Source: a virus. Taken from it: 47,795 nt of DNA. Below the pieces are notes generated by a model, which was not told the DNA's origin, did not search any database, and saw nothing but the letters and a program-made list of their open reading frames with translations. How positions within the stretch are numbered: position 1 is the stretch's first letter; the number at the start of each line of letters is the position of its first letter. This document shows positions 2,838 to 35,381 of this stretch, in pieces. Both the position numbers and the translations under genes were made by a program. Location: positions 1 through 47,795 of IMG/VR virus record IMGVR_UViG_3300030090_002243; one strand, 5' to 3'.

Positions 2838-5800
2838 TGCCAAAAAAAGTATATAAAATAGAATCATTCGAGGGTGGGATAAATCAAAAAGCCGACCCTC
2901 GTGATATTAAAAATAATCAATTAGAAGAAGCATTCAATGTAGATGTATCGAATCCTGGTCGTATAGTAATGACAGGAGACGGAACTTCATCTTATGTTAA
3001 TGTGAATGCTAAAAATAAACAAGTTTCTCCAACAGAAGAGTCAAGTTCTTTATTGCTAAATGGTTCAAATTTAACAAATGGATATGGATTGTTTAATTTT
3101 TCACATGATTATAATATGGCTGACACGCCTAGTGAAGTAGCTTCAGATTTTATATGTATTAATGATGGAGCAAAAGTTCATATATGGGATTCATGCTATG
3201 ATTCTGCAGGCGGGGTAGATTCTTGGCTTAATTCTAAAATTACTTTAGGTAAAGCTAATTCTAATAATAATGGGAATGAATGGATAGAAAAAGTAAAACC
3301 TATTTATTATAAGGCAGATAATGGATTAAGAGTATGTGATGGTCAATTTTGTTCTCAAAATATAGACGCACTTTTAAATGCAGATGTAGGTTCTAGCACT
3401 AATACTTTTGTTTTACAGCAACCTTTAAGTTCAAACATTGCTGCGAATGATTATTTAAAAATTAATAATGAAATAGTTAAATATATCTCAGGAACAACAA
3501 CAATAAAAGTTTTAAGAGGTCAATTTGGCACTACTGCATCTTCTCACGTTGCTGCATCTTCTTTGCAAGCTATAAATGTTCCAAAAATATTATCACACAT
3601 TAAAAGACCTTTTTTAGAAAAAGCACGTAAATACACTAACTTAACTGATTATACAAATGCATCTGCAGATATAGCAATTAATAAATGGCAAGAAGATGTA
3701 CAAGCTTTAGAGCCTGCTAACAATTATTCAGCAAGTGGGCAGCCTTATGGTTTAGTTGTTTATGATGGTAAAGTTACAGGCATGGCTACAACAGGGACTT
3801 CTGGAACTACTGCAGATGAATCTCTTCAAGAGCCAAATGCGCCAGAAAAAGTTTTATTTAGTGTACATGAAAGCAAAAGTGCAGATGATAATGTGCAAAG
3901 AATTGCATCAGTAGTTGATGGAGGAGTTCTTAATAGTAACAATACAACAGTATTAATTCATTCTAATACTAGTTTTAATTTTGCACAAAATGGTTTTACT
4001 GTAGGTAAACTTGTTATTGTTTCGGGTTCAACAAATTACGATGGATTGGCTGAAATTGTAGGGCAAGGAGATGCTGCTCATAAAATTAAAATATCTATTA
4101 ATCATGTTTCTGAATCAACTGAAGACAAAGATTTTGATATTAGATTAGAAGAAAATAGAATATCAGAAGATTTGCAAAATAAATATATATTTGGAATGTC
4201 ATTTGTATATGATGGAGGCGGTAGTGAAAAACAAGAGTCTCCTGTAAAGCCTGGATATGTTTACTCTGGGTTAATACCTCATGATGCATCTATTGGCAAA
4301 ACTAATAGTGGTTGGAAGACAGATAACGCGGCTCAAAGTTCTGATGCGGTATTGGCAATAGAAGATGATGATGGAGCAGGTTATAGTACTTGGATATTAA
4401 ATGATGGTACATTTTTCTTTGATGATAGCGCAATTAGTGAAAATAAGTTTTTAATGTACAATGGTGATTCTTTAGCTGATGGAACTTATAAAATTGCTAT
4501 TGATGTAGCTGAGGCAGGTCAATTAAAAATATATCCTCCTGGGAATGATGCAGATTCATCTGGAGGTTCTGTTGGAGATGGCACTGGAGACAGTGCGACT
4601 GTGACAATTAATACTCCAGGAGTATATTTATTTTCTGCTGTTAAAGATACTTCTAACGAATCAGCTACATTTAATTTTGTATGTGAAGGAATTGATGGCC
4701 AAGGAGATATTAGAATTAATAGCGTACAAGTATTTAATGATACTCCTGTAGAAATGGATGCCAATAATGCTATAGATATGAGAGGATTTGAAGGTGTTCC
4801 TAAAATGTTTTCTGGTTTTAATATGAATAGAAGTTCCCAATATCAATGGAACGACCGAATTATTGGATATAGAATATATATGAAACAGGTAGATTCTGCT
4901 ACTACTACGCTATTAGATGAATGGCTTTTAGCTTTAGATGTTAATTTACAATCAGGTGAATATATTAATTATGCAAATGAAGCAGCGGAACAATATTTGC
5001 ATTTAAGTCAAAATTGGGTAGAAGATAGTTCATCTCCAGTTGTAGATACGTTTGTATACTCTTCTGTTTGTACTGAAAAAGTAGGTGGAAATACTAACGG
5101 ACGTTCTAATATGGACACTCTTAGAAATATTCCTCTTAACACATATGAATCTGAAAATGGATATAAAGCTGAGACTAATACAGCTGCTATGTATAAAACA
5201 GCAACAATAATAGATAGAAAAGTTTTTATAGGTAATTTAAAAATAGGAGAGAAAACATATCCTGACAGAATGATTGAAGCTCCCGTAGATAGGTTTGATA
5301 CATTTCCAGATGATGGATTAAATTATATAGACATTGCTGTAGGCGATGGCGATGAAATTGTTAAGCTAGAGTCAGTAGGGAATAAGCTTATACAATTTAA
5401 AAAGAAACATGCATATCTAATACAAGTGTCTTCAGAAGGTGTTGATGTATTAGAAACATGGGCGCATAAAGGTATAAAATCTGCAGCACAATCTATTCTT
5501 GCTGGTAATGGGATTGTTTGGGTTAATGATAGTGGACTATATTATTATGATGGTAAAGATTTAAAAATAATTACTAGTGATTCATTTCAATCTAATACAT
5601 GGATTATTAATGAAGACCCAGCTAAACCTCCTATACTTGGTTACGATGAATCTTCCAATAAAGTAATAATACTAACTAGTAATGTTACAGAAAAAAATAA
5701 CGGTGGATATATTTATGACATACAAAATGCATCGTTAACTGAATGTCAAAATTTATTTAACACATATCCTATTACTTTAGAAAATGCAATGCTAGATGCA

Positions 5801-29255: not shown

Positions 29256-29408
29256 CTACTTGCGTATATGCCTGTACACAGTAGCTCTCGATACCCCCAC
29301 AATTTTGGATATCTTTCTTCCGTTTAGACCTAAGCCATAAAGAGTGTTAATTAAAAACCCTTTTGCTCGACCTACACGTCTCCTCTTATCTTTAGAAAGG
29401 AATGTCAT
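29256..29408 (-). CDS. Small helix-turn-helix DNA-binding protein (50 residues)
   Basis: The gene starts at an ATG inside the end of the SSB-like gene, with GGAGAGGT upstream. The basic N-terminus (KRRRVGRAKG) is followed by a segment whose last part, GRKISKIVGVSRATVYRHI, is a textbook helix-turn-helix of the type found at the C-terminus of serine resolvases and in small regulators. There is no catalytic domain, so it is likely a transcription regulator or a DNA-bending accessory. It could control its own operon or the switch between early units. It ends at a TAG followed in frame by 54 further sense codons. Confidence 0.7.
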   Translation of the reverse strand: MTFLSKDKRRRVGRAKGFLINTLYGLGLNGRKISKIVGVSRATVYRHIRK

Positions 29409-30027
29409 CGTTCTTAACCTCTCCGCCTTCCCATGTTTTGATAAACTTAACTACAAATGGTGTCCTTTCTTTACCATCTTTGGTAGTATATGGTTTACCT
29501 TTATCAACAACTGCTATTGCAGGTTTTCCGTTGATTTGAGAAGGGTCAAGTGATGGTAAGATTTTAACTTCTACATCTTGTCCATCGATTTGTGCGACCT
29601 TCTTTTCTATATCCAAGCCTAGCGTCTCGCAGAATCTAAAATAAGATTTATTGCCAGGTGCATTAGACTTGAAGTCATCTCCCTCACTAGGCTCTAGGAA
29701 TCTAAAGACTCCGTTAGCCTTGTAAGAACGACCAATATAATCCTCTCCAGATGCAACTTGCTCTGATGAGTCTTTATAGCTAGCATATGTATAGCTTTGC
29801 GACTTATTTGCTTCATCAACAACGAATGAGTAGTTATAAACTATTGCTTTAAACTTCTCTCCGTCTTTAGTCCAAGAAACTTCTTTCATTTGTGCATCAG
29901 CTAGGTGTCCATAAAACTCGCCTCGTACATTTGGAGCAACTGAGGTTTTGCTTGGAGTGCTAGTCGGTACAAAGAAACTTTCTTTGTTTGTTAACAAGTC
30001 GTCAAACATGTCATTTGAATTAGCCAT
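29392..30027 (-). CDS. Single-stranded DNA-binding-like protein
   Basis: The 211-residue product ends NDDIPF, the acidic C-terminal tip by which SSB proteins recruit partners. The middle is beta-rich with aromatic residues (SYTYASYKDS, FRFLEPSEGDD, KSYFRFCETLGL), consistent with an OB fold, although it does not look like the classic bacterial SSB. A GAGGAG site precedes the ATG, which overlaps the end of the annealing-protein gene. It should coat single-stranded DNA during replication and recombination. Confidence 0.75.
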   Translation of the reverse strand: MANSNDMFDDLLTNKESFFVPTSTPSKTSVAPNVRGEFYGHLADAQMKEVSWTKDGEKFKAIVYNYSFVVDEANKSQSYTYASYKDSSEQVASGEDYIGRSYKANGVFRFLEPSEGDDFKSNAPGNKSYFRFCETLGLDIEKKVAQIDGQDVEVKILPSLDPSQINGKPAIAVVDKGKPYTTKDGKERTPFVVKFIKTWEGGEVKNDDIPF

Positions 30028-30604
30028 TTTCTTTCTCCTCTATTATTATTTTATTACATTGTTCTTTACATGCTTCAAAGTTACTTGCGTCAACTTTGCC
30101 TTGAGATACAGCGTTATACACACCATCTCTCAATTTTTTATCCTTTATCTTATCTGCTAAAGCATTCAATTCTTCAGCTTGTTTAGCAGTAATCGGGTCA
30201 GCCTCTGGTAAATCCTCTCCCGCAAAGATATACAGACCAAGACCATGAAGTGCAATAGCCTTAGCTAAACACCTTTGAATTGATGTGTTAATCTGAAACG
30301 AGTTTGGACTTTCTATAGGTGCGTTCCTATGGTCTAGCACGGGATGAATCTGTGTTCTTATAACGCCATCAACATCCACAGAGACTTGTACGTATGCACC
30401 AGTTTCGTTTTTCATGTATGGTTGCTTAGTTCCATCTGCATTGTCAAACAAATGCACTTCCCATGTAGCGTCTGGACATACTTTTAATAATTCTCTTACA
30501 GCGTACGCCCAACTAAGATAATTAAACTGCCCTTTTTTCTCTGTGAACTTAGATACATCTACTTTGTTAAGTTGTTCAAATGTATTACTTTTTTTCGTTG
30601 CCAT
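30020..30604 (-). CDS. Single-strand annealing protein, DUF1071/Sak3-like
   Basis: The 194-residue product has the pattern of the Sak3 (DUF1071) annealing proteins: FEQLNKVDVSKFTEKKGQ followed by YLSWAYAVREL, a VHLFDN segment, then SFQINTSIQRCLAKAIALHG and LGLYIFAGEDLPE. Such proteins anneal complementary strands in phage recombination with a partner nuclease and SSB. All three genes are adjacent here (nuclease, annealing protein, SSB), which strongly supports the role. GGAGAG lies before the ATG. Confidence 0.85.
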   Translation of the reverse strand: MATKKSNTFEQLNKVDVSKFTEKKGQFNYLSWAYAVRELLKVCPDATWEVHLFDNADGTKQPYMKNETGAYVQVSVDVDGVIRTQIHPVLDHRNAPIESPNSFQINTSIQRCLAKAIALHGLGLYIFAGEDLPEADPITAKQAEELNALADKIKDKKLRDGVYNAVSQGKVDASNFEACKEQCNKIIIEEKENG

Positions 30605-30755: not shown

Positions 30756-31600
30756 TACTTTTTCCTTTTATGAAATGGAGGATTGCAATGGTCAAGATAC
30801 TTGCAATAACTGCAATTCCAATCTTCTACTGGAGAGATACCTTGCCTAAATTGAGGCAATCCTTTTTCATGTTCTTTGTTTACATTTACCCAAAAATTAT
30901 ATGCACTTTTTAGCATATGAAGACCGACACTCACACATCTCATACGTGAGTCATCTTTCTTGTAGTAGTACAAATACATCCCATCTAATCTACCAAATTC
31001 TTTCTCAACCGCCAAGCCATAAGTTCCAAGCTGAATCTCTTGATGCTTCGTAGCGTTAGGGTCTGGGTTCTTATATCCAAACTTACGAGACCACGCGTAA
31101 CTCGCCATGGTTTTGAAGTCTATAAGAAAAACTTTACCAGTAGTCCTAGACACCGCAACGAGGTCATAAAAACCTCGGACATTTAAGTCTGGTAGGATAA
31201 CTTCTTTTTCAATGTGAAAGTCAAAACTTTCTTTTTGTAAATTATGTATTTCTTTTTCTTTACAATATATAGTATTACTATCTATAGTATTACTATATAT
31301 AGTATCGGAAGACCTTTCATCTTTTAAGATTTGACTTCCTTGAAATTTCATTAAAGCAATCTGTATATCATCATGAACAATCGTTCCTAAACGTAACAAT
31401 CGATTTACTCTTTCATCTGTAAAGTTAGTAGCTTCTACTTGGTCTACAGATTCAAAATACAGCTTACGTGAGCAAGAACCCGCACCAGAGCCATGATAAT
31501 ACTTTTCCTTACCCTCGTATCGTTCTTTATAATTTTCTTCGTTTTTACGGGCAATATAGCCTTCGTACAAACCTTCTATGTCAACTGGACAATTCTTCAT
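30755..31600 (-). CDS. Cas4-like PD-(D/E)XK exonuclease with an iron-sulfur cluster
   Basis: This 281-residue protein shows the Cas4/AddB-type plan: Cys43 in GSCSRKLYF, His76 in GTIVHDD, an Asp in GFYDLVA, then LIDFKT with the D-x-K pair, a Gln in IQLGTYG, and a C-terminal Cys trio (263, 266, 272) that completes a four-cysteine 4Fe-4S site with Cys43. The enzyme would resect DNA ends to give single strands for the annealing protein encoded downstream. No other CRISPR gene is present, so it is a recombination nuclease. It contains an odd 15-bp repeat between His76 and the catalytic Asp. Confidence 0.85.
   Translation of the reverse strand: MKNCPVDIEGLYEGYIARKNEENYKERYEGKEKYYHGSGAGSCSRKLYFESVDQVEATNFTDERVNRLLRLGTIVHDDIQIALMKFQGSQILKDERSSDTIYSNTIDSNTIYCKEKEIHNLQKESFDFHIEKEVILPDLNVRGFYDLVAVSRTTGKVFLIDFKTMASYAWSRKFGYKNPDPNATKHQEIQLGTYGLAVEKEFGRLDGMYLYYYKKDDSRMRCVSVGLHMLKSAYNFWVNVNKEHEKGLPQFRQGISPVEDWNCSYCKYLDHCNPPFHKRKK
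31262..31306 (-). repeat. Three tandem 15-bp units with near-palindromic cores inside the nuclease gene
   Basis: Read on the minus strand the stretch encodes DTIYS, NTIDS, NTIYC, three five-residue units in a loop between the His and Asp motifs. On either strand each unit holds a palindromic core such as ACTATATATAGT, repeated every 15 bp. It may be a recent in-frame expansion or a protein-binding array. Confidence 0.75.
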
Positions 31601-31743
31601 TATGATTTTTTATTGATATAACTCTTAATTAAACGTGAGACAACCTCATTCATTGATTGTCCATGTGTATAGCAAGTGCCTTTAAATTTAGCCCATAGCT
31701 CTGTATCTATGTTCGTCAATATTACATGCTTTTTCTCAGTCAT
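31600..31743 (-). CDS. Ribbon-helix-helix DNA-binding protein (47 residues)
   Basis: The product has an N-terminal beta strand (KHVILTNID), a first helix (TELWAKFKGTCY) and a second helix (SMNEVVSRLIKSYI), which is the plan of CopG/Arc-type ribbon-helix-helix regulators. AAAGGT precedes the ATG at 31743, and the stop shares a base with the start of the Cas4-like nuclease gene. A dimer of such a small protein typically binds palindromic operators, so it may autoregulate this recombination operon; the promoter just upstream is a likely target. Confidence 0.75.
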   Translation of the reverse strand: MTEKKHVILTNIDTELWAKFKGTCYTHGQSMNEVVSRLIKSYINKKS

Positions 31744-31759
31744 TCTCATACCTTTGTTT

Positions 31760-31954
31760 TTAATTGTTAATGTAAGACTTAGGGGCTTGACCCTCGTTAT
31801 CCCTCAAAAATATACTTCTGTATTTCGATACGTCACGTATCAGGAATCGCCTGTCAATATCCCCTAATTTTAAGAAAGCTATCAGCTCTACCTGTTTTTT
31901 TGTAACATATTCCCATTGTGACCAGTTACTAACTTTCTTAATCTTACATATCAA
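31760..31954 (-). CDS. Hypothetical protein, probably read from a TTG on a leaderless mRNA
   Basis: The open frame gives 64 residues (start TTG, MICKIKKVSNWSQWEY) and looks protein-like: aromatic N-terminal half, then LGDIDRRFLIRDVSKYRS. There is no ATG in the frame and no ribosome site, but a promoter-like pair lies immediately upstream so that transcription would begin about four bases before the TTG. It precedes the ribbon-helix-helix gene by 16 bases. Gene status is uncertain. Confidence 0.45.
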   Translation of the reverse strand: MICKIKKVSNWSQWEYVTKKQVELIAFLKLGDIDRRFLIRDVSKYRSIFLRDNEGQAPKSYINN

Positions 31955-32007: not shown

Positions 32008-32178
32008 TTATTGATTTTCTCCTCTATTATTATTTTTATCATGTCTATTTATTACTTCAAACATGACTTCTATGTGTGGTAGATTATCCCAACTCCACTC
32101 TTTGTGGTAGTAAGTATCTTTTTCTTCGTTATTAACGATATGTAAAAAGTCATCTACGAAATCTTTCATTTTACTCAT
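32008..32178 (-). CDS. Small acidic hypothetical protein (56 residues)
   Basis: The start MSKMKDFVDDFL at 32178 is chosen because AGGAG lies seven bases upstream; the longer in-frame start lies inside the preceding gene. The protein is rich in Asp, Glu, His and Asn and ends RHDKNNNRGENQ. It is the last gene of the early small-gene run before the AT-rich promoter gap. The function is unknown. Confidence 0.6.
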   Translation of the reverse strand: MSKMKDFVDDFLHIVNNEEKDTYYHKEWSWDNLPHIEVMFEVINRHDKNNNRGENQ

Positions 32179-32182
32179 TTTA

Positions 32183-32263
32183 CTATCTCCTATTTTTATA
32201 TTTAAAGTACGCCCACTCAGCAAAACTTAGTGCTAATAATGCAAAGAAAAATATTTCTACCAT
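32183..32263 (-). CDS. 26-residue membrane protein
   Basis: A strong GGAGGT site precedes the ATG at 32263, which lies within the last codons of the preceding gene. The product is MVEIFFFALLALSFAEWAYF plus a basic tail KYKNRR: one membrane helix and a positive end. Such minute membrane proteins in early phage operons can alter host membranes or enzymes, but no homologue is recognised. Confidence 0.55.
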   Translation of the reverse strand: MVEIFFFALLALSFAEWAYFKYKNRR

Positions 32264-32454
32264 CCTACACCTCCCATCAGCACATTCTTTCTGTCTATGA
32301 GCCTATTTAGCCGTTCAATCGTAACTTCATAGTTTCGTACTGCCGTTACTCCCGTTCGGTTTGGATATTTAATATTAACTTTCTTTCCTATTTTGTTTTG
32401 TGTTTGTCTTATTATGTTATCATATACTTCGATAACGTCTTTATTTGGTATCAT
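32257..32454 (-). CDS. Small basic hypothetical protein (65 residues)
   Basis: It starts with MIPNKDVIEVYDNIIRQTQN and has a basic middle (KIGKKVNIKYPNRTG) and a helical C-terminal half (YEVTIERLNRLIDRKNVLM). GGAGAAG lies upstream and the start overlaps the end of the previous gene by 14 bases. It is one of a coupled run of early genes. No function can be assigned. Confidence 0.6.
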   Translation of the reverse strand: MIPNKDVIEVYDNIIRQTQNKIGKKVNIKYPNRTGVTAVRNYEVTIERLNRLIDRKNVLMGGVGW

Positions 32455-32659
32455 TGTTTACTTCTCCTATTTTAATCTTTGGAATGTCTTTTGCATCAAA
32501 CATATTTACAAACGTATCTAAGATATCTTCGTTTGACATATGTTCAAGTCCTATGTACCCGTGTATCATTATATCATAAATGTCATCACCGCCATAGTTT
32601 TCAACATAAAAAACTGCTAATTTATGCCTCATTTTATCATAATCTGGTATTCTACTCAT
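32441..32659 (-). CDS. Small acidic hypothetical protein (72 residues)
   Basis: The ATG at 32659 shares a base with the preceding stop, and GGAGGT lies upstream. The product is acidic, with the segments YGGDDIYDIMIHGYIGLEH and MSNEDILDTFVNMFDAKDI that look like two helices. It is read with the neighbours on both sides. Many early phage inhibitors share such a profile, but nothing specific is recognised. Confidence 0.6.
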   Translation of the reverse strand: MSRIPDYDKMRHKLAVFYVENYGGDDIYDIMIHGYIGLEHMSNEDILDTFVNMFDAKDIPKIKIGEVNNDTK

Positions 32660-32952
32660 TAGTTCACCTCCTTTACTTCAAATCCCCAATCTCGTAGCTG
32701 TTTTGCTATTGTTTCGGGTAGTGCAAATACTCCATCATAATCTACTAGTTCGCCACTTTGAAACCACAAACCACCCTCAGCATAGTATTCTGTACCATCG
32801 TTATACATCTCGTAGTGTCCGTATTGCTTTATTGGATTAACTTCGATGTGATAGGTAATCTGCTGTGTTTCATATGGTGTTGCACCACTTGATGTTTCGT
32901 GCCTTATCTGCTCTTGTTTAATGATTGTTGTCTTCTTGACGTCCTTCATCAT
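32659..32952 (-). CDS. Hypothetical protein (97 residues)
   Basis: AAGGAGG precedes the ATG at 32952. The product has a polar N-terminal third (KKTTIIKQEQIRHETSSG), then an aromatic beta-like region (YGHYEMYNDGTEYYAEGG, LWFQSGELVDYDGVFALP) and ends with DWGFEVKEVN. The WFQSGELVDYDGVFALP segment resembles a small beta fold seen in other unknown phage proteins. It overlaps the preceding gene by 35 bases. Confidence 0.6.
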   Translation of the reverse strand: MMKDVKKTTIIKQEQIRHETSSGATPYETQQITYHIEVNPIKQYGHYEMYNDGTEYYAEGGLWFQSGELVDYDGVFALPETIAKQLRDWGFEVKEVN

Positions 32953-33121
32953 TTGCCTCCTTTTTAGTTTGCTGATTCATATCAAGTGCTAGTTTAAGCA
33001 TAGCTAGTGATAGTGCATCATCTAATCTACTTCTAGTAAACTTGACTTCTTCTTTACGTTTTTTTAGTTCTAACTTCTGCATCTTTTTTATCTTCTCTAG
33101 TTCTTTATCTAAATCAAACAT
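32918..33121 (-). CDS. Small coiled-coil protein (67 residues)
   Basis: The chain starts MFDLDKELEKIKKMQKLELK and remains strongly charged and helical throughout, with Lys/Glu heptads in residues 5-30 and a polar acidic end. GAGAGGAAG lies upstream of the ATG. It begins three bases after the stop of the previous gene and overlaps the next by 35. It may bind a partner as a coiled coil; no family is recognised. Confidence 0.6.
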   Translation of the reverse strand: MFDLDKELEKIKKMQKLELKKRKEEVKFTRSRLDDALSLAMLKLALDMNQQTKKEANDEGRQEDNNH

Positions 33122-33123
33122 AT

Positions 33124-33309
33124 TTATTCTTCCTCTCTTATTAAATCGGTTATTTCATCTTCGTGTTCAACAATTAAACACATCATATGAGTAAGTATTG
33201 TATGGTCTATTGCTTCCCATAGATTATCGCTAATAGTTTGTAAATCTCTTTGCAAAGATTTAGACTTAACTTGTGATTGTAATTCGTTTACAAATTCTTG
33301 TTGTTCCAT
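33124..33309 (-). CDS. Small acidic hypothetical protein (61 residues)
   Basis: TAGGAGG precedes the ATG. The product is helical and polar (MEQQEFVNELQSQVKS) with an amphipathic middle (LWEAIDHTILTHMMCLIVEH) and an acidic end (EDEITDLIREEE). It is a member of the coupled run of early genes. Function unknown. Confidence 0.6.
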   Translation of the reverse strand: MEQQEFVNELQSQVKSKSLQRDLQTISDNLWEAIDHTILTHMMCLIVEHEDEITDLIREEE

Positions 33310-33320
33310 TAATTTACCTC

Positions 33321-33641
33321 CTAGTTATATTTTAGTTCTACATTGAAAGGCTCTACATCATTGCCTAAGTCAAAATTTTCTATAAAGTTCTTGATTCCAT
33401 ACCAATCTTCTTCATCTTCGGGAAATAAGTTAATTTCGTCATCGCTTTCATAGACTAGCCAAAAACGTATATCATCGTAATCGACCTCAACAAGCACATT
33501 TTCTTCATCAACCTCTCTACCGTCTTTTTCTAGGTCTGCTAGAATAGCACGTGTTAATGCTAATGCTATTGGACAGCTACAACCACTCTTTCTTACTCCC
33601 TTTCTTATATCATCTTTAGTTACTTCAACTACAATGCTCAT
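33321..33641 (-). CDS. Acidic phage protein with the 'CxCPIALAL' motif (106 residues)
   Basis: The N-terminal part, VTKDDIRKGVRKSGCSCPIA followed by LALTRAIL, matches a widespread small phage protein of unknown function that shows 'I.kG.r....C.CP.AlAl.r'. The C-terminal half is very acidic (ESDDEINLFPEDEEDW and ENFDLGNDVEPF), which could mimic DNA. The ATG overlaps the stop of the previous gene by four bases, with AGGAG upstream. The family is common in phages; the role is not known. Confidence 0.65.
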   Translation of the reverse strand: MSIVVEVTKDDIRKGVRKSGCSCPIALALTRAILADLEKDGREVDEENVLVEVDYDDIRFWLVYESDDEINLFPEDEEDWYGIKNFIENFDLGNDVEPFNVELKYN

Positions 33642-33847
33642 TTACTTTTCTCCTTATTATCTAAAAATTTATTTAGTGAGCCTAGCCAACTTAACTTATC
33701 AGTATCGTTCGCAATATCCCATTCTTCCCATTCATAATATGTTTTATTTGATTGTTCCCATAAATCTTCATAGCAATCAAAATTGTATCCTCTTTCTTTA
33801 ATTGTATCGGATATGCACATTATTTTATATGCTACATCAAAGTCCAT
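33638..33847 (-). CDS. Small acidic, Trp/Tyr-rich protein (69 residues)
   Basis: AGGAG lies upstream of the ATG at 33847. The product is MDFDVAYKIMCISDTIKERG followed by an acidic aromatic segment (YEDLWEQSNKTYYEWEEWDI) and a basic end (DNKEKSK). The dense acidic and aromatic patch is unusual and may mimic nucleic acid or bind a host enzyme. It is translationally coupled to the next gene (ATGA overlap). Confidence 0.6.
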   Translation of the reverse strand: MDFDVAYKIMCISDTIKERGYNFDCYEDLWEQSNKTYYEWEEWDIANDTDKLSWLGSLNKFLDNKEKSK

Positions 33848-33869
33848 TTACTTTTCTCCTTTTTTTTTA

Positions 33870-34085
33870 TTAATGTTTATCCCAAAACCAATCAAATGAT
33901 TCGTAATATTCCATATCTACATCTCTAAATTCGCTGATAAAGCTATTAACCGCCTCTTTTTCTGTATAACCTATATATCTTTTAATTACTATCTGATTGT
34001 CAATAATATCGCTTATGGCTATGCAACTATGATATTTTGTAATTGTTACATCAGTTTTTTCGCATTTCTTTTCTTCTATAATCAT
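33870..34085 (-). CDS. Small hypothetical protein (71 residues)
   Basis: GAGGAA precedes the ATG at 34085. The product has a beta-like N-terminal part (VTITKYHSCIAISDI), then IVIKRYIGYTEKEAVNSFIS and an acidic aromatic end (DVDMEYYESFDWFWDKH). The YIGYT-x-K-E-A-V-x-x-F-x-x-E pattern is common in small phage proteins of unknown role. It begins directly after the preceding stop. Confidence 0.6.
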   Translation of the reverse strand: MIIEEKKCEKTDVTITKYHSCIAISDIIDNQIVIKRYIGYTEKEAVNSFISEFRDVDMEYYESFDWFWDKH

Positions 34086-34086
34086 T

Positions 34087-34269
34087 TTAATATTCCTCTT
34101 CCATATCTTTTATTTGTTCTAAAGTTCTATATCCCGTACGGCTATATAGTATTGATTCTAAACTATCTAAATTCATCCCATTAATTGAGCATACTAGACA
34201 TATTTCTTTTACCGTTGCTACTTCGTAGTCCATTAAATAATCGTATAATTCTTGTGTATCTTTATCCAT
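34087..34269 (-). CDS. Small phage protein with a 'SINGMN...RTGYRTLEQ' motif (60 residues)
   Basis: The start at 34269 (MDKDTQELYDYLMDYEVATV) is preferred because it follows GAAGGAG and the stop of the previous gene; longer in-frame starts lie inside that gene. The pattern 'YDYL.DYEVAT..EI.LV.SINGMN...L..I.YSRTGYR..EQ' recalls a small helical protein found in many unrelated phages. No function is known for it. Confidence 0.65.
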   Translation of the reverse strand: MDKDTQELYDYLMDYEVATVKEICLVCSINGMNLDSLESILYSRTGYRTLEQIKDMEEEY

Positions 34270-34270
34270 T

Positions 34271-34531
34271 TTATTCATCTCCTTCACAATAACAATCTTC
34301 TTCTTCACAATCTTCACATACTTCTACTTCATATTCTTCTACTTCAATATCTTCTCCACTCCATACCCAGTCAAAGCAATAAGAATTCCAACATTCAGCA
34401 TCACCGCATATTGCTGTATTACTCGCATATGCCCATTTTACTTCTGTTTCTTCTGGAGTTGCACCGCAATATTCGCACTCCGCATCCCATCTCTTTTTTG
34501 TTATTGTTATTTTATTTTTCATTTTTATCAT
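34271..34531 (-). CDS. Cys- and Glu-rich putative zinc-binding protein (86 residues)
   Basis: The start at 34531 (ATG with AAGGA seven bases upstream) is one of several in-frame ATGs. The segment CEYCGATPEETEVKWAYAS continues to AICGDAECWNSYC, which gives CxxC and CxxxxC pairs like a zinc ribbon. The tail is packed with Cys and acidic residues (VCEDCEEEDCYCEGDE). It overlaps the preceding gene by 20 bases. It could bind metal or mimic DNA; function not established. Confidence 0.6.
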   Translation of the reverse strand: MIKMKNKITITKKRWDAECEYCGATPEETEVKWAYASNTAICGDAECWNSYCFDWVWSGEDIEVEEYEVEVCEDCEEEDCYCEGDE

Positions 34532-34703
34532 CCTCATATCCTTCAATTAATGATGATTCTAGTTGCCCAATAAATACTATAAGGTCAAATTTGTACTTTT
34601 TAGGCATTTTATCTATAATATAACCTAATCTTTCATCTTGATGTTTTTTGTTCTTAAATGATGCAAACAATCTTACTGGCTTTTTTCTTTGTTCTTTTTT
34701 CAT
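34512..34703 (-). CDS. Small basic hypothetical protein (63 residues)
   Basis: A purine-rich AAAGGAAAA stretch precedes the ATG. The basic N-terminus (MKKEQRKKPVRLFASFKNKK) leads to a helical part (ERLGYIIDKMPKKYKFDLIV, then FIGQLESSLI). The layout of one strand and two helices is loosely like plasmid-type ribbon-helix-helix partition regulators, but the match is weak. It ends in an acidic EDDKNEK. Confidence 0.55.
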   Translation of the reverse strand: MKKEQRKKPVRLFASFKNKKHQDERLGYIIDKMPKKYKFDLIVFIGQLESSLIEGYEDDKNEK

Positions 34704-34721
34704 TTTCTTTTTTCCTTTACT

Positions 34722-34895
34722 TTATTGAAAATCGCTTGGTGTGTATTGGTCAATAATTTCATTAGCCTCATCTAGCAATTTCTCTAATTTCTTTATATCT
34801 TTTTCCAATACATCTATATATCTACAACTAGCTAAATGCATTTTCTTGTAACTTTCAATCTTCTCTTTTAAAAATTTTTCTTTGTTCATATTCAT
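34722..34895 (-). CDS. Small coiled-coil protein (57 residues)
   Basis: The ATG at 34895 (MNMNKEKFLKEKIESYKKMH) is used because the longer frame from a TTG would begin inside the terminator stem. The chain is a charged helix with heptads (IDVLEKDIKKLEKLLDEANEI). No ribosome site is visible, since the T tract of the terminator lies immediately upstream; this suggests reinitiation or readthrough. Gene status is plausible but not firm. Confidence 0.5.
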   Translation of the reverse strand: MNMNKEKFLKEKIESYKKMHLASCRYIDVLEKDIKKLEKLLDEANEIIDQYTPSDFQ

Positions 34896-34896
34896 A

Positions 34897-34931
34897 TAAA
34901 AAAAATGCCTAGCCAAATTAATGACTAGGCA
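34897..34931 (-). terminator. Rho-independent terminator after the first early gene
   Basis: On the minus strand TGCCTAGTC (34931-34923) pairs with GGCTAGGCA (34914-34906) with one mismatch or wobble, an eight-base loop, then a run of eight T (about 34905-34898). It follows the stop of the 121-residue gene by about 12 bases and should reduce transcription of the genes that follow. Confidence 0.75.
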
Positions 34932-34943
34932 CTTACTCCTATG

Positions 34944-35309
34944 TTATTCTTGTTCTGTGTTATCTTCAGTTAATTCATCTAACTCTAGTTTTAAATCACT
35001 TATTGCTTGGTTAGCATCATCAATATAATTGCTATACTCTGTTACTTCTTCAAGGTAGCCAATTGCATTGCTGACTGAGTCGTATTGGTCTCTAAATTCA
35101 GAATCAACACTATCTATTTTATCTTCTATTTTATTAAGTGCTTCTAGTAAGTGATTAATGTTATTTACTTGTGTGTTGTTTTGTAGGTGGGTTATTTGGT
35201 CAATGATATCGATACTTCCATCATTGTGCATTATTCTTTTTATTTCTTGAAGTTTAGCACTATCTCTTTCTAATTGTGTTAAGTCTTCAAGCATCTTTTT
35301 AATTTCCAT
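34944..35309 (-). CDS. First early gene, a 121-residue coiled-coil protein
   Basis: AAGGAC precedes the ATG at 35309. The whole protein is acidic and helical, with long heptad regions (residues 1-30, IEDKIDSVDSEFRDQYDSV, and a C-terminal IDDANQAISDLKLELDELTE). Being nearest to the candidate early promoter and followed at once by a terminator, it should be the most highly expressed early gene. Acidic coiled coils in this position may bind a host polymerase or nucleoid protein, but this is conjecture. Confidence 0.65.
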   Translation of the reverse strand: MEIKKMLEDLTQLERDSAKLQEIKRIMHNDGSIDIIDQITHLQNNTQVNNINHLLEALNKIEDKIDSVDSEFRDQYDSVSNAIGYLEEVTEYSNYIDDANQAISDLKLELDELTEDNTEQE

Positions 35310-35352: not shown

Positions 35353-35381
35353 ATATTATCAATAATTACATTAATAAACAA
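35353..35381 (-). promoter_or_regulatory. Candidate early promoter of the minus-strand genes
   Basis: On the minus strand TTGTTT (35381-35376) and TAATAT (35358-35353) are exactly 17 bases apart, a sigma-70-type pair, about 40-50 bases before the first early gene. The region 35310-35460 holds no gene and lies between divergent genes, where promoters are expected. Its AT-richness limits certainty. Confidence 0.5.

Follow-up and report, generated by a model that had tools for sequence, protein, structure and literature searches.

The minus strand of positions 32008-35309 in the IMG/VR virus record IMGVR_UViG_3300030090_002243 (47,795 bases, hereafter the window) carries 15 small open reading frames (ORFs), labelled a to o, and the product of one of these, gene f, ends with a short aromatic and acidic peptide that recurs in other viral contigs on about nine mostly unrelated protein bodies, at either end of the protein. 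We propose, as a tentative reading to which we would give slightly less than an even chance, that this portable peptide, or tag, is a short motif that docks in trans onto one partner. The block in which it resides is best explained as a mosaic operon whose small accessory genes are swapped one at a time between this tailed phage and its relatives. The two features at the center of this analysis are the following.

33870-34085, minus strand: gene f, 71 amino acids (aa), a body with the pattern YIGYT.KEAV and a portable C-terminal tail
33876-33908, minus strand: portable peptide YYESFDWFWDK, the C-terminal part of gene f

Distribution of the portable peptide

The C-terminus of the gene f product is YYESFDWFWDKH, and the consensus of the peptide is roughly [DN]x[EK]YYESF[DE]WFW[DNK][KD]. 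The same tail closes an unrelated Cys-rich protein in locus L012 and two further proteins in L016 and L027. The search for additional copies consisted of two pattern scans of viral contigs, the second of which yielded 22 stretches; 19 of these were kept, including the one in L121, the near-identical twin of the window (IMGVR_UViG_3300030207_001740), and three (L139, L143 and L152), in which the motif is found inside unrelated, mostly large ORFs, were dropped. The MIKAAKKDG family, which fits the first pattern without containing the motif (it reads EWFDWFW, at an internal position), was also rejected.

Among the 19 carriers, the peptide is a C-terminal tail in 10, an N-terminal tag in seven and the main part of a near-standalone 40-aa ORF in two (L145 and L138). 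The C-terminal tails are attached to body A (four carriers), bodies B, C and D (one each), body E (two) and a 40-aa remnant in L147 (one), and the N-terminal tags precede bodies F (two), G (one), H (one) and I (three), with the start set by a single upstream ATG in five of these seven cases (L140, L155, L144, L151 and L153). Exactly one copy was detected in each of 19 of the 50 records searched, with no match in the other 31, and a reversed control pattern was absent from all 50. In a relaxed scan of 157 loci, the true tags scored at least 56 and everything else at most 50. When the loci that predate the tag search were screened for shared 8-mers, 11 of 1,902 were flagged: three belong to the tag (on bodies A, B and C), five to the gene e family described below, and three are chance-like or loosely related.

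Seven of the nine bodies (A, C, D, E, F, H and I) also occur without an intact tag, several of them in loci where the tag is attached to another protein: in L148, the tag is on body C and bodies A, D and E are untagged; in L138, it stands nearly alone next to untagged A and I; in L146, it is on F, with H and I untagged; and in L155, it is on G, with F untagged. This distribution bears on the possibility of a modular address label, whereby the bodies would be the effectors and the tag would take each of them to one place (a host complex, the membrane or the capsid), like cargo peptides. That about nine bodies share one peptide, whether at the N- or the C-terminus, speaks for such a label; however, because a single protein is labelled in each carrier record, with homologs of other bodies remaining untagged nearby, and because the near-standalone forms (L145, L138 and L147) have little body, we consider this explanation unlikely.

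Thirteen non-carriers were rechecked with up to three mismatches allowed, and no tag was detected; in one non-carrier, G009, the body C protein ends with RGWFWDKEK, perhaps a remnant of the tag. A strict pattern search of one collection of cellular genomes produced no convincing copy; the single match (YYERFDWFW, L156, from Sulfuricurvum) is, as judged by eye, antisense to a TonB-receptor-like ORF and was taken as chance. A tblastn search of GenBank phages with the 23-aa tag, a short query with little power, returned nothing at an expect value (E) of up to 10, and body I returned nothing from the same phages at 1e-3. The peptide matched PDB sequences only at E of 2.4 or worse. The strings ESFEWFW, ESFDWFW, YYESFEW and SINGTNLDSL were not found in the literature searched, where no title dealt with the motif.

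Selection on the peptide and its passage between phages

The 19 rows of the tag alignment (with the window standing for its twin L121) comprise 14 distinct DNA forms. Over the 11 tag columns, the third codon position is variable in eight, the first in four and the second in one, and the serine codons are TCA, TCT, AGT or AGC. For the 14 forms, the proportion of synonymous differences (pS) is 0.79 and that of nonsynonymous differences (pN) is 0.094, a contrast that is overstated because seven of the 11 residues (Y2, D/E3, F5, D/E6, W7, F8 and W9) were fixed by the search pattern itself. At the four positions left free by the pattern, pS is 0.77 and pN is 0.22, and position 4 is serine in all 14 forms; for the five forms already known when pattern searching for the tag began, the values are 0.44 and 0.055, respectively. 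Because synonymous change exceeds amino-acid change, at the free positions as well, these comparisons argue for selection acting on the tag peptide.

The same data can be set against the notion of a recombination joint at the DNA level, that is, a hot spot or a regulatory DNA element that is read in frame by chance. The tag indeed sits at cassette junctions, and over 30-51 nucleotides (nt) the window DNA shares 82-97% identity with the C-terminal copies of L012, L016 and L027. Nevertheless, the third positions vary, the serine codons switch between TCN and AGY, and all 19 copies are in an open frame and encode the same peptide, although the back-translated patterns catch out-of-frame copies only if the DNA is kept; we find it highly improbable that the tag is such a joint.

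Among the nine carriers for which the portal protein was compared, eight have portals 68-100% identical to that of the window and one (G004) has a portal with 29% identity and a capsid protein with 31% identity over part of its length. In L134, whose phage has this portal with only 29% identity, the tag DNA is nevertheless one base off that of the window, on a different body; thus, the tag has crossed phage lineages.

A possible role of the portable peptide

If the peptide is a docking motif, it would be the functional part of the protein and its carrier would be largely exchangeable. The aromatic and acidic stretch would bind one partner, most likely a host machine that the phage must block or redirect. 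A closely related view, which we hold somewhat more loosely still, is that of a vagrant peptide gene, an effector of 11-14 residues that is present in one copy per genome and persists by fusing to a neighbouring small protein, at either end, or nearly alone. Under this view, to the same limited degree of confidence, the conservation across unrelated carriers would mark the docking site on one host target. Small phage genes are mostly without known function because each is seen alone; by contrast, about nine natural carriers of one peptide point to the residues that matter, and the target could be fished with one synthetic peptide.

Several observations weigh against the docking motif. The search patterns partly impose the conservation of the residues, and diverged tags would be missed. 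Of the nine carriers (out of 19) with a portal comparison, eight are close to the window, so that most carriers may belong to a single lineage. Records G003, G063 and G020 (the last a fragment), all from the lineage of the window, and the more distant G005 lack the tag at up to three mismatches, and the tag is therefore dispensable in some phages. The 8-mer screen, when applied to all loci, flagged 12 8-mers of which only two contain the tag, with three bodies each, a poor yield that we put down to a loose rule by which bodies are merged. The Cys-rich bodies B and I are similar with a BLAST E of 0.004 in a 15-sequence database and may be distantly related, the remaining cross-body pairs being at E of 0.026 or worse. 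Finally, the open frame extends further in the 5' direction in two N-terminal cases (L146 and L141) and in both near-standalone ones (L145 and L138).

A different kind of explanation would make the body irrelevant, namely that the tag is a cis-acting nascent-chain peptide, of the arrest or leader type, that halts the translating ribosome and so regulates the gene that follows. In 16 of the 19 copies, the next start preceded by a Shine-Dalgarno (SD) sequence is 33-56 nt past the ESF codon, and in five of the seven N-terminal forms this start is the body's own, in frame. However, a short distance to the next SD is normal in packed operons, and three copies (L134, L144 and L151) are separated from such a start by 125-215 nt. 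This explanation is further weakened because the following gene varies (g in the window, e in L148, a homolog of d in L150, and body D in L142, L147 and L154), and we view it as rather improbable. The docking motif remains the reading that we favour, with the reservations given above.

The block of small genes

The block consists of real genes, most of which evolve under purifying selection and which are shuffled between relatives. Coding sequence accounts for 96.6% of positions 32008-35309, 13 of the 14 gaps between neighbours are at most 22 bases or are overlaps, and a purine-rich SD precedes 14 of the 15 starts, gene b being the sole exception. The minus strand of the block contains 14 ATG-initiated ORFs of at least 50 aa, compared with a mean of 0.57 and a maximum of 4 in 500 dinucleotide shuffles; for such ORFs with an SD, the count is 13 compared with a mean of 0.098 and a maximum of 2. 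The first-pass annotation, which was made from the sequence of the window, described a run of about sixteen small genes, many of them coupled and with proper ribosome sites: the compactness and the ribosome sites hold, and the count is corrected to 15.

Homologs (E of at most 1e-3) were identified in other IMG/VR phage contigs for 12 of the 15 genes (all but b, g and n), leaving aside the near-identical record. The ratio of nonsynonymous to synonymous substitution rates (dN/dS) was below 1 in all 41 computable pairs (0.09-0.81) of the 51 examined, 10 being saturated; this set spans 14 of the 15 genes, with n omitted and b and g lacking a partner, and includes duplicate contigs as well as the comparison of gene f with L012, where unrelated bodies have only the tail in common. 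The gene order differs between contigs, and blocks of DNA similarity, as seen by eye, often start or stop near ribosome sites. The remaining genes of the block are listed below.

34944-35309, minus strand: gene a, 121 aa, acidic, coiled-coil-like, first in the block; homologs in L005 (59%, dN/dS 0.24) and L007 (47%, dN/dS 0.51)
34722-34889, minus strand: gene b, 55 aa, without an adjacent SD; homolog in the near-identical record only
34512-34703, minus strand: gene c, 63 aa, basic; homolog in L011, dN/dS 0.81
34271-34531, minus strand: gene d, 86 aa, Cys-rich, very acidic, zinc-ribbon-like by eye; 6 loci; dN/dS 0.09-0.26
34087-34269, minus strand: gene e, 60 aa, of the SINGMN..RTGYR family, with four helices predicted
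33638-33847, minus strand: gene g, 69 aa, acidic-aromatic; homolog in the near-identical record only
33321-33641, minus strand: gene h, 106 aa, acidic, CSCPIALAL; phrog_19191; alpha/beta model
33124-33309, minus strand: gene i, 61 aa; homologs in L007 (95%) and L009 (81%)
32918-33121, minus strand: gene j, 67 aa; homologs in L007, L009 and L012
32659-32952, minus strand: gene k, 97 aa; homologs in L007 (89%) and L004 (46%)
32441-32659, minus strand: gene l, 72 aa; homologs in 5 loci, four of which gave a dN/dS (0.18-0.32)
32257-32454, minus strand: gene m, 65 aa, basic; homolog in L007 (33%)
32183-32263, minus strand: gene n, 26-aa hydrophobic peptide ORF with an SD; homolog in the near-identical record only
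32008-32178, minus strand: gene o, 56 aa; homologs in L009 and L012

Genes d and e form a recurring pair, being adjacent in the window and in L026/L027 and at most about 1.3 kb apart in L009, L011 and L016. An exact 21-base repeat that includes the ribosome site AGAGGAGAAA is located at the end of gene o (32016-32036) and before the gene at 29392-30027 (30032-30052), and is a possible seam for cassette exchange.

Beyond the block, the window encodes a P22-type portal, an SU10-type capsid protein, a terminase, a DnaB helicase, a Sak-type annealing protein, a Cas4-like nuclease and a Holliday junction resolvase. Adjoining the Cas4-like nuclease is an Arc-like repressor (31600-31749, minus strand; phrog_3180, E 4e-6). 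No near DNA match to positions 25001-47795 was found among known phages, and the portal had no match in GenBank phages at 1e-5; the terminase matches 726 records, with 25-27% identity in the 12 listed.

Acidity of the products and gene h

Six of the 15 block products have an isoelectric point (pI) below 4.5, compared with four of 33 window genes taken from outside the block, and the median net charge per residue is -0.085 in the block and -0.011 outside (Mann-Whitney p=0.003), a rough comparison given that many of the 33 outside genes are larger. The strong acidity noted in the initial description is thus present; the DNA mimicry or inhibition of host defence that it was taken to indicate had charge as its sole basis, and DNA mimicry by the acidic block proteins is a guess.

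Profile scans (PHROGs with all 15 products, Pfam and NCBIfam with 10 each) gave weak, unspecific matches apart from gene h, and gene a showed only sub-cutoff coiled-coil models. The gene h protein matches phrog_19191, whose function is unknown, along most of its length (E 3.3e-10); the same PHROG was matched in four of the 50 related records, whereas no match to gene h was found among GenBank phages (E of at most 0.01). The AlphaFold2 model of this protein, the one acidic candidate for which a structure was predicted, has a mean predicted local distance difference test score (pLDDT) of 90.5. A comparison of the model with solved structures revealed no convincing match, although such an absence is not decisive; the best was VIA, a phosphopantetheinyl transferase (Z 4.7, root mean square deviation (rmsd) 3.2, 80 residues), and the assignment of gene h to a known fold was dropped.

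These results can be weighed with respect to an SPO1-like operon for host takeover and inhibition of defence, in which each acidic protein would hit its own enzyme, some as DNA mimics, and the tail of gene f would be incidental mosaicism. The packing, the small size of the genes, the SDs and the acidity all agree with such an operon, as does the SPO1 module, eight products of which are reported to attenuate the growth of Bacillus subtilis (PMC6873191). On the other side, charge alone is weak evidence, the tested block proteins match no named inhibitor family in PHROGs, Pfam or NCBIfam, gene h is without a clear PDB match, and incidental mosaicism does not readily account for an 11-residue conservation at the peptide level at both protein ends. 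We regard this explanation as possible but doubtful.

The gene e family

The gene e family is widespread, found here only in viruses and unmatched in PHROGs and Pfam, with a confident four-helix model. As a single query, gene e retrieved 16 relatives in viral contigs, and an alignment search of the IMG/VR viral contigs gave 101 confirmed matches, of which 80 were kept. In GenBank, relatives were identified in five records, those of Vibrio phages Artemius and P018-4, Pseudoalteromonas phage H101 (two accessions) and a microvirus. The microvirus copy (L031, 4691-4870) is in an unannotated stretch of MG945818, a pig feces sequence marked unverified; the family may thus have reached single-stranded DNA phages from tailed ones. 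Among 84,980 cellular genomes searched with one pattern, there was a single matching stretch, which was not confirmed. At 0.01, PHROGs gave no match to any of the 55 aligned members, two single members had weak matches to unrelated Pfam models, and the window protein had no NCBIfam match.

The model of the gene e protein (four helices, pLDDT 94.2) showed no clear solved relative in a structure search, an absence that is not decisive. A role as a DnaD-like helicase loader was suggested by weak matches of the window protein to phrog_186 (E 0.21) and to the DnaD-domain chain 2i5u (Z 2.9, rmsd 3.1, 46 residues); it was dropped when phrog_186 proved not to be among the families matched by two or more of the 55 members.

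Three motifs of the block (SINGMN..RTGYR, CxCPIALAL and YIGYT.KEAV) had been recognized at the outset as patterns found in many unrelated phages. All three are present, and this statement is borne out only for SINGMN..RTGYR, by the IMG/VR matches and the five GenBank records. CxCPIALAL corresponds to the one PHROG of gene h, and YIGYT.KEAV was seen in IMG/VR relatives among the fetched loci and was not found in GenBank phages.

Hairpins and a candidate structured RNA

Three putative non-coding features accompany the block.

35353-35381, minus strand: candidate promoter TTGTTT-17-TAATAT in the divergent intergenic region, read by eye and weak; same spacing in L007
34903-34934, minus strand: hairpin with a T run, intrinsic-terminator-like, between genes a and b
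31780-31866, minus strand: candidate structured RNA, just outside the block, within the TTG-initiated ORF 31760-31954

The candidate promoter was missed by a consensus scan. The hairpin is closely preceded by AGGAG and closely followed by the ATG of gene b, and is also found in L007 (4204-4229) and L011 (about 4680-4715), each time with an ORF start directly 3'. In L011, two pairs are changed on both sides of the stem and one pair is changed to G-T; AGGAG precedes the hairpin in the window and L007 and not in L011. This element may be a terminator, an attenuator or a bridge between SD and start. As a pattern, its stem was found in 10 stretches of the viral contigs, where the known relatives are only L007 and the twin of the window. 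In L005 (about 2443-2540), gene a is followed by a different strong fold, with a GGGGAC...GTCCCC closing stem (-31 kcal/mol for a 130-base stretch) and no Rfam match at E of at most 1.

Copies of the candidate structured RNA were identified in L004 (4362-4443), L005 (4944-5018), L027 (12139-12245) and L160 (about 1506-1587), that is, in the window and four of the 50 related records searched whole; all have conserved ends, GGATATTGACAGG...TAAC.AGGGTCAAGCC, and a variable middle. In an alignment of four sequences, 14 pairs have 100% of cells paired, and five pairs are changed on both sides. The outer stem shows a compensatory change from TAGGGG/CCCCTA to GGAAGG/CCTTCC in L027. A model built from these four sequences found the fifth, untrained copy, which is in the contig of L007 (E 3.8e-16), with one outer pair broken. 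Because the candidate lies inside it, the ORF at 31760-31954 is probably not a gene. The candidate has no Rfam match at E of at most 1, and scans of the window and ten related loci with Rfam at gathering thresholds were negative.

Comparison with known systems

The host takeover module of Bacillus phage SPO1 comprises 26 genes, mostly small and early (PMC6873191). The block is similar to it in layout, since in both most genes are small, closely clustered and provided with strong ribosome sites. It differs in being a mosaic with a portable peptide. The charge typical of DNA mimics such as Ocr and ArdA is displayed by the six products with pI below 4.5.

T4-type phages contain hyperplastic regions in which small ORFs are exchanged cassette-wise, together with mobile promoter/stem-loop cassettes. 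The small ORFs of the block are likewise exchanged cassette by cassette; the difference is that the block has one listed terminator-like stem-loop on the minus strand rather than one per cassette, a simple scan of that strand having revealed no terminator-like site besides the hairpin after gene a. The clamp-binding proteins of phage T4 have short C-terminal docking motifs, and several proteins of one phage carry them. The portable peptide resembles these motifs in being a short aromatic and acidic tail common to different proteins, and differs from them in that it is present once per record and can be located at either end of the protein.

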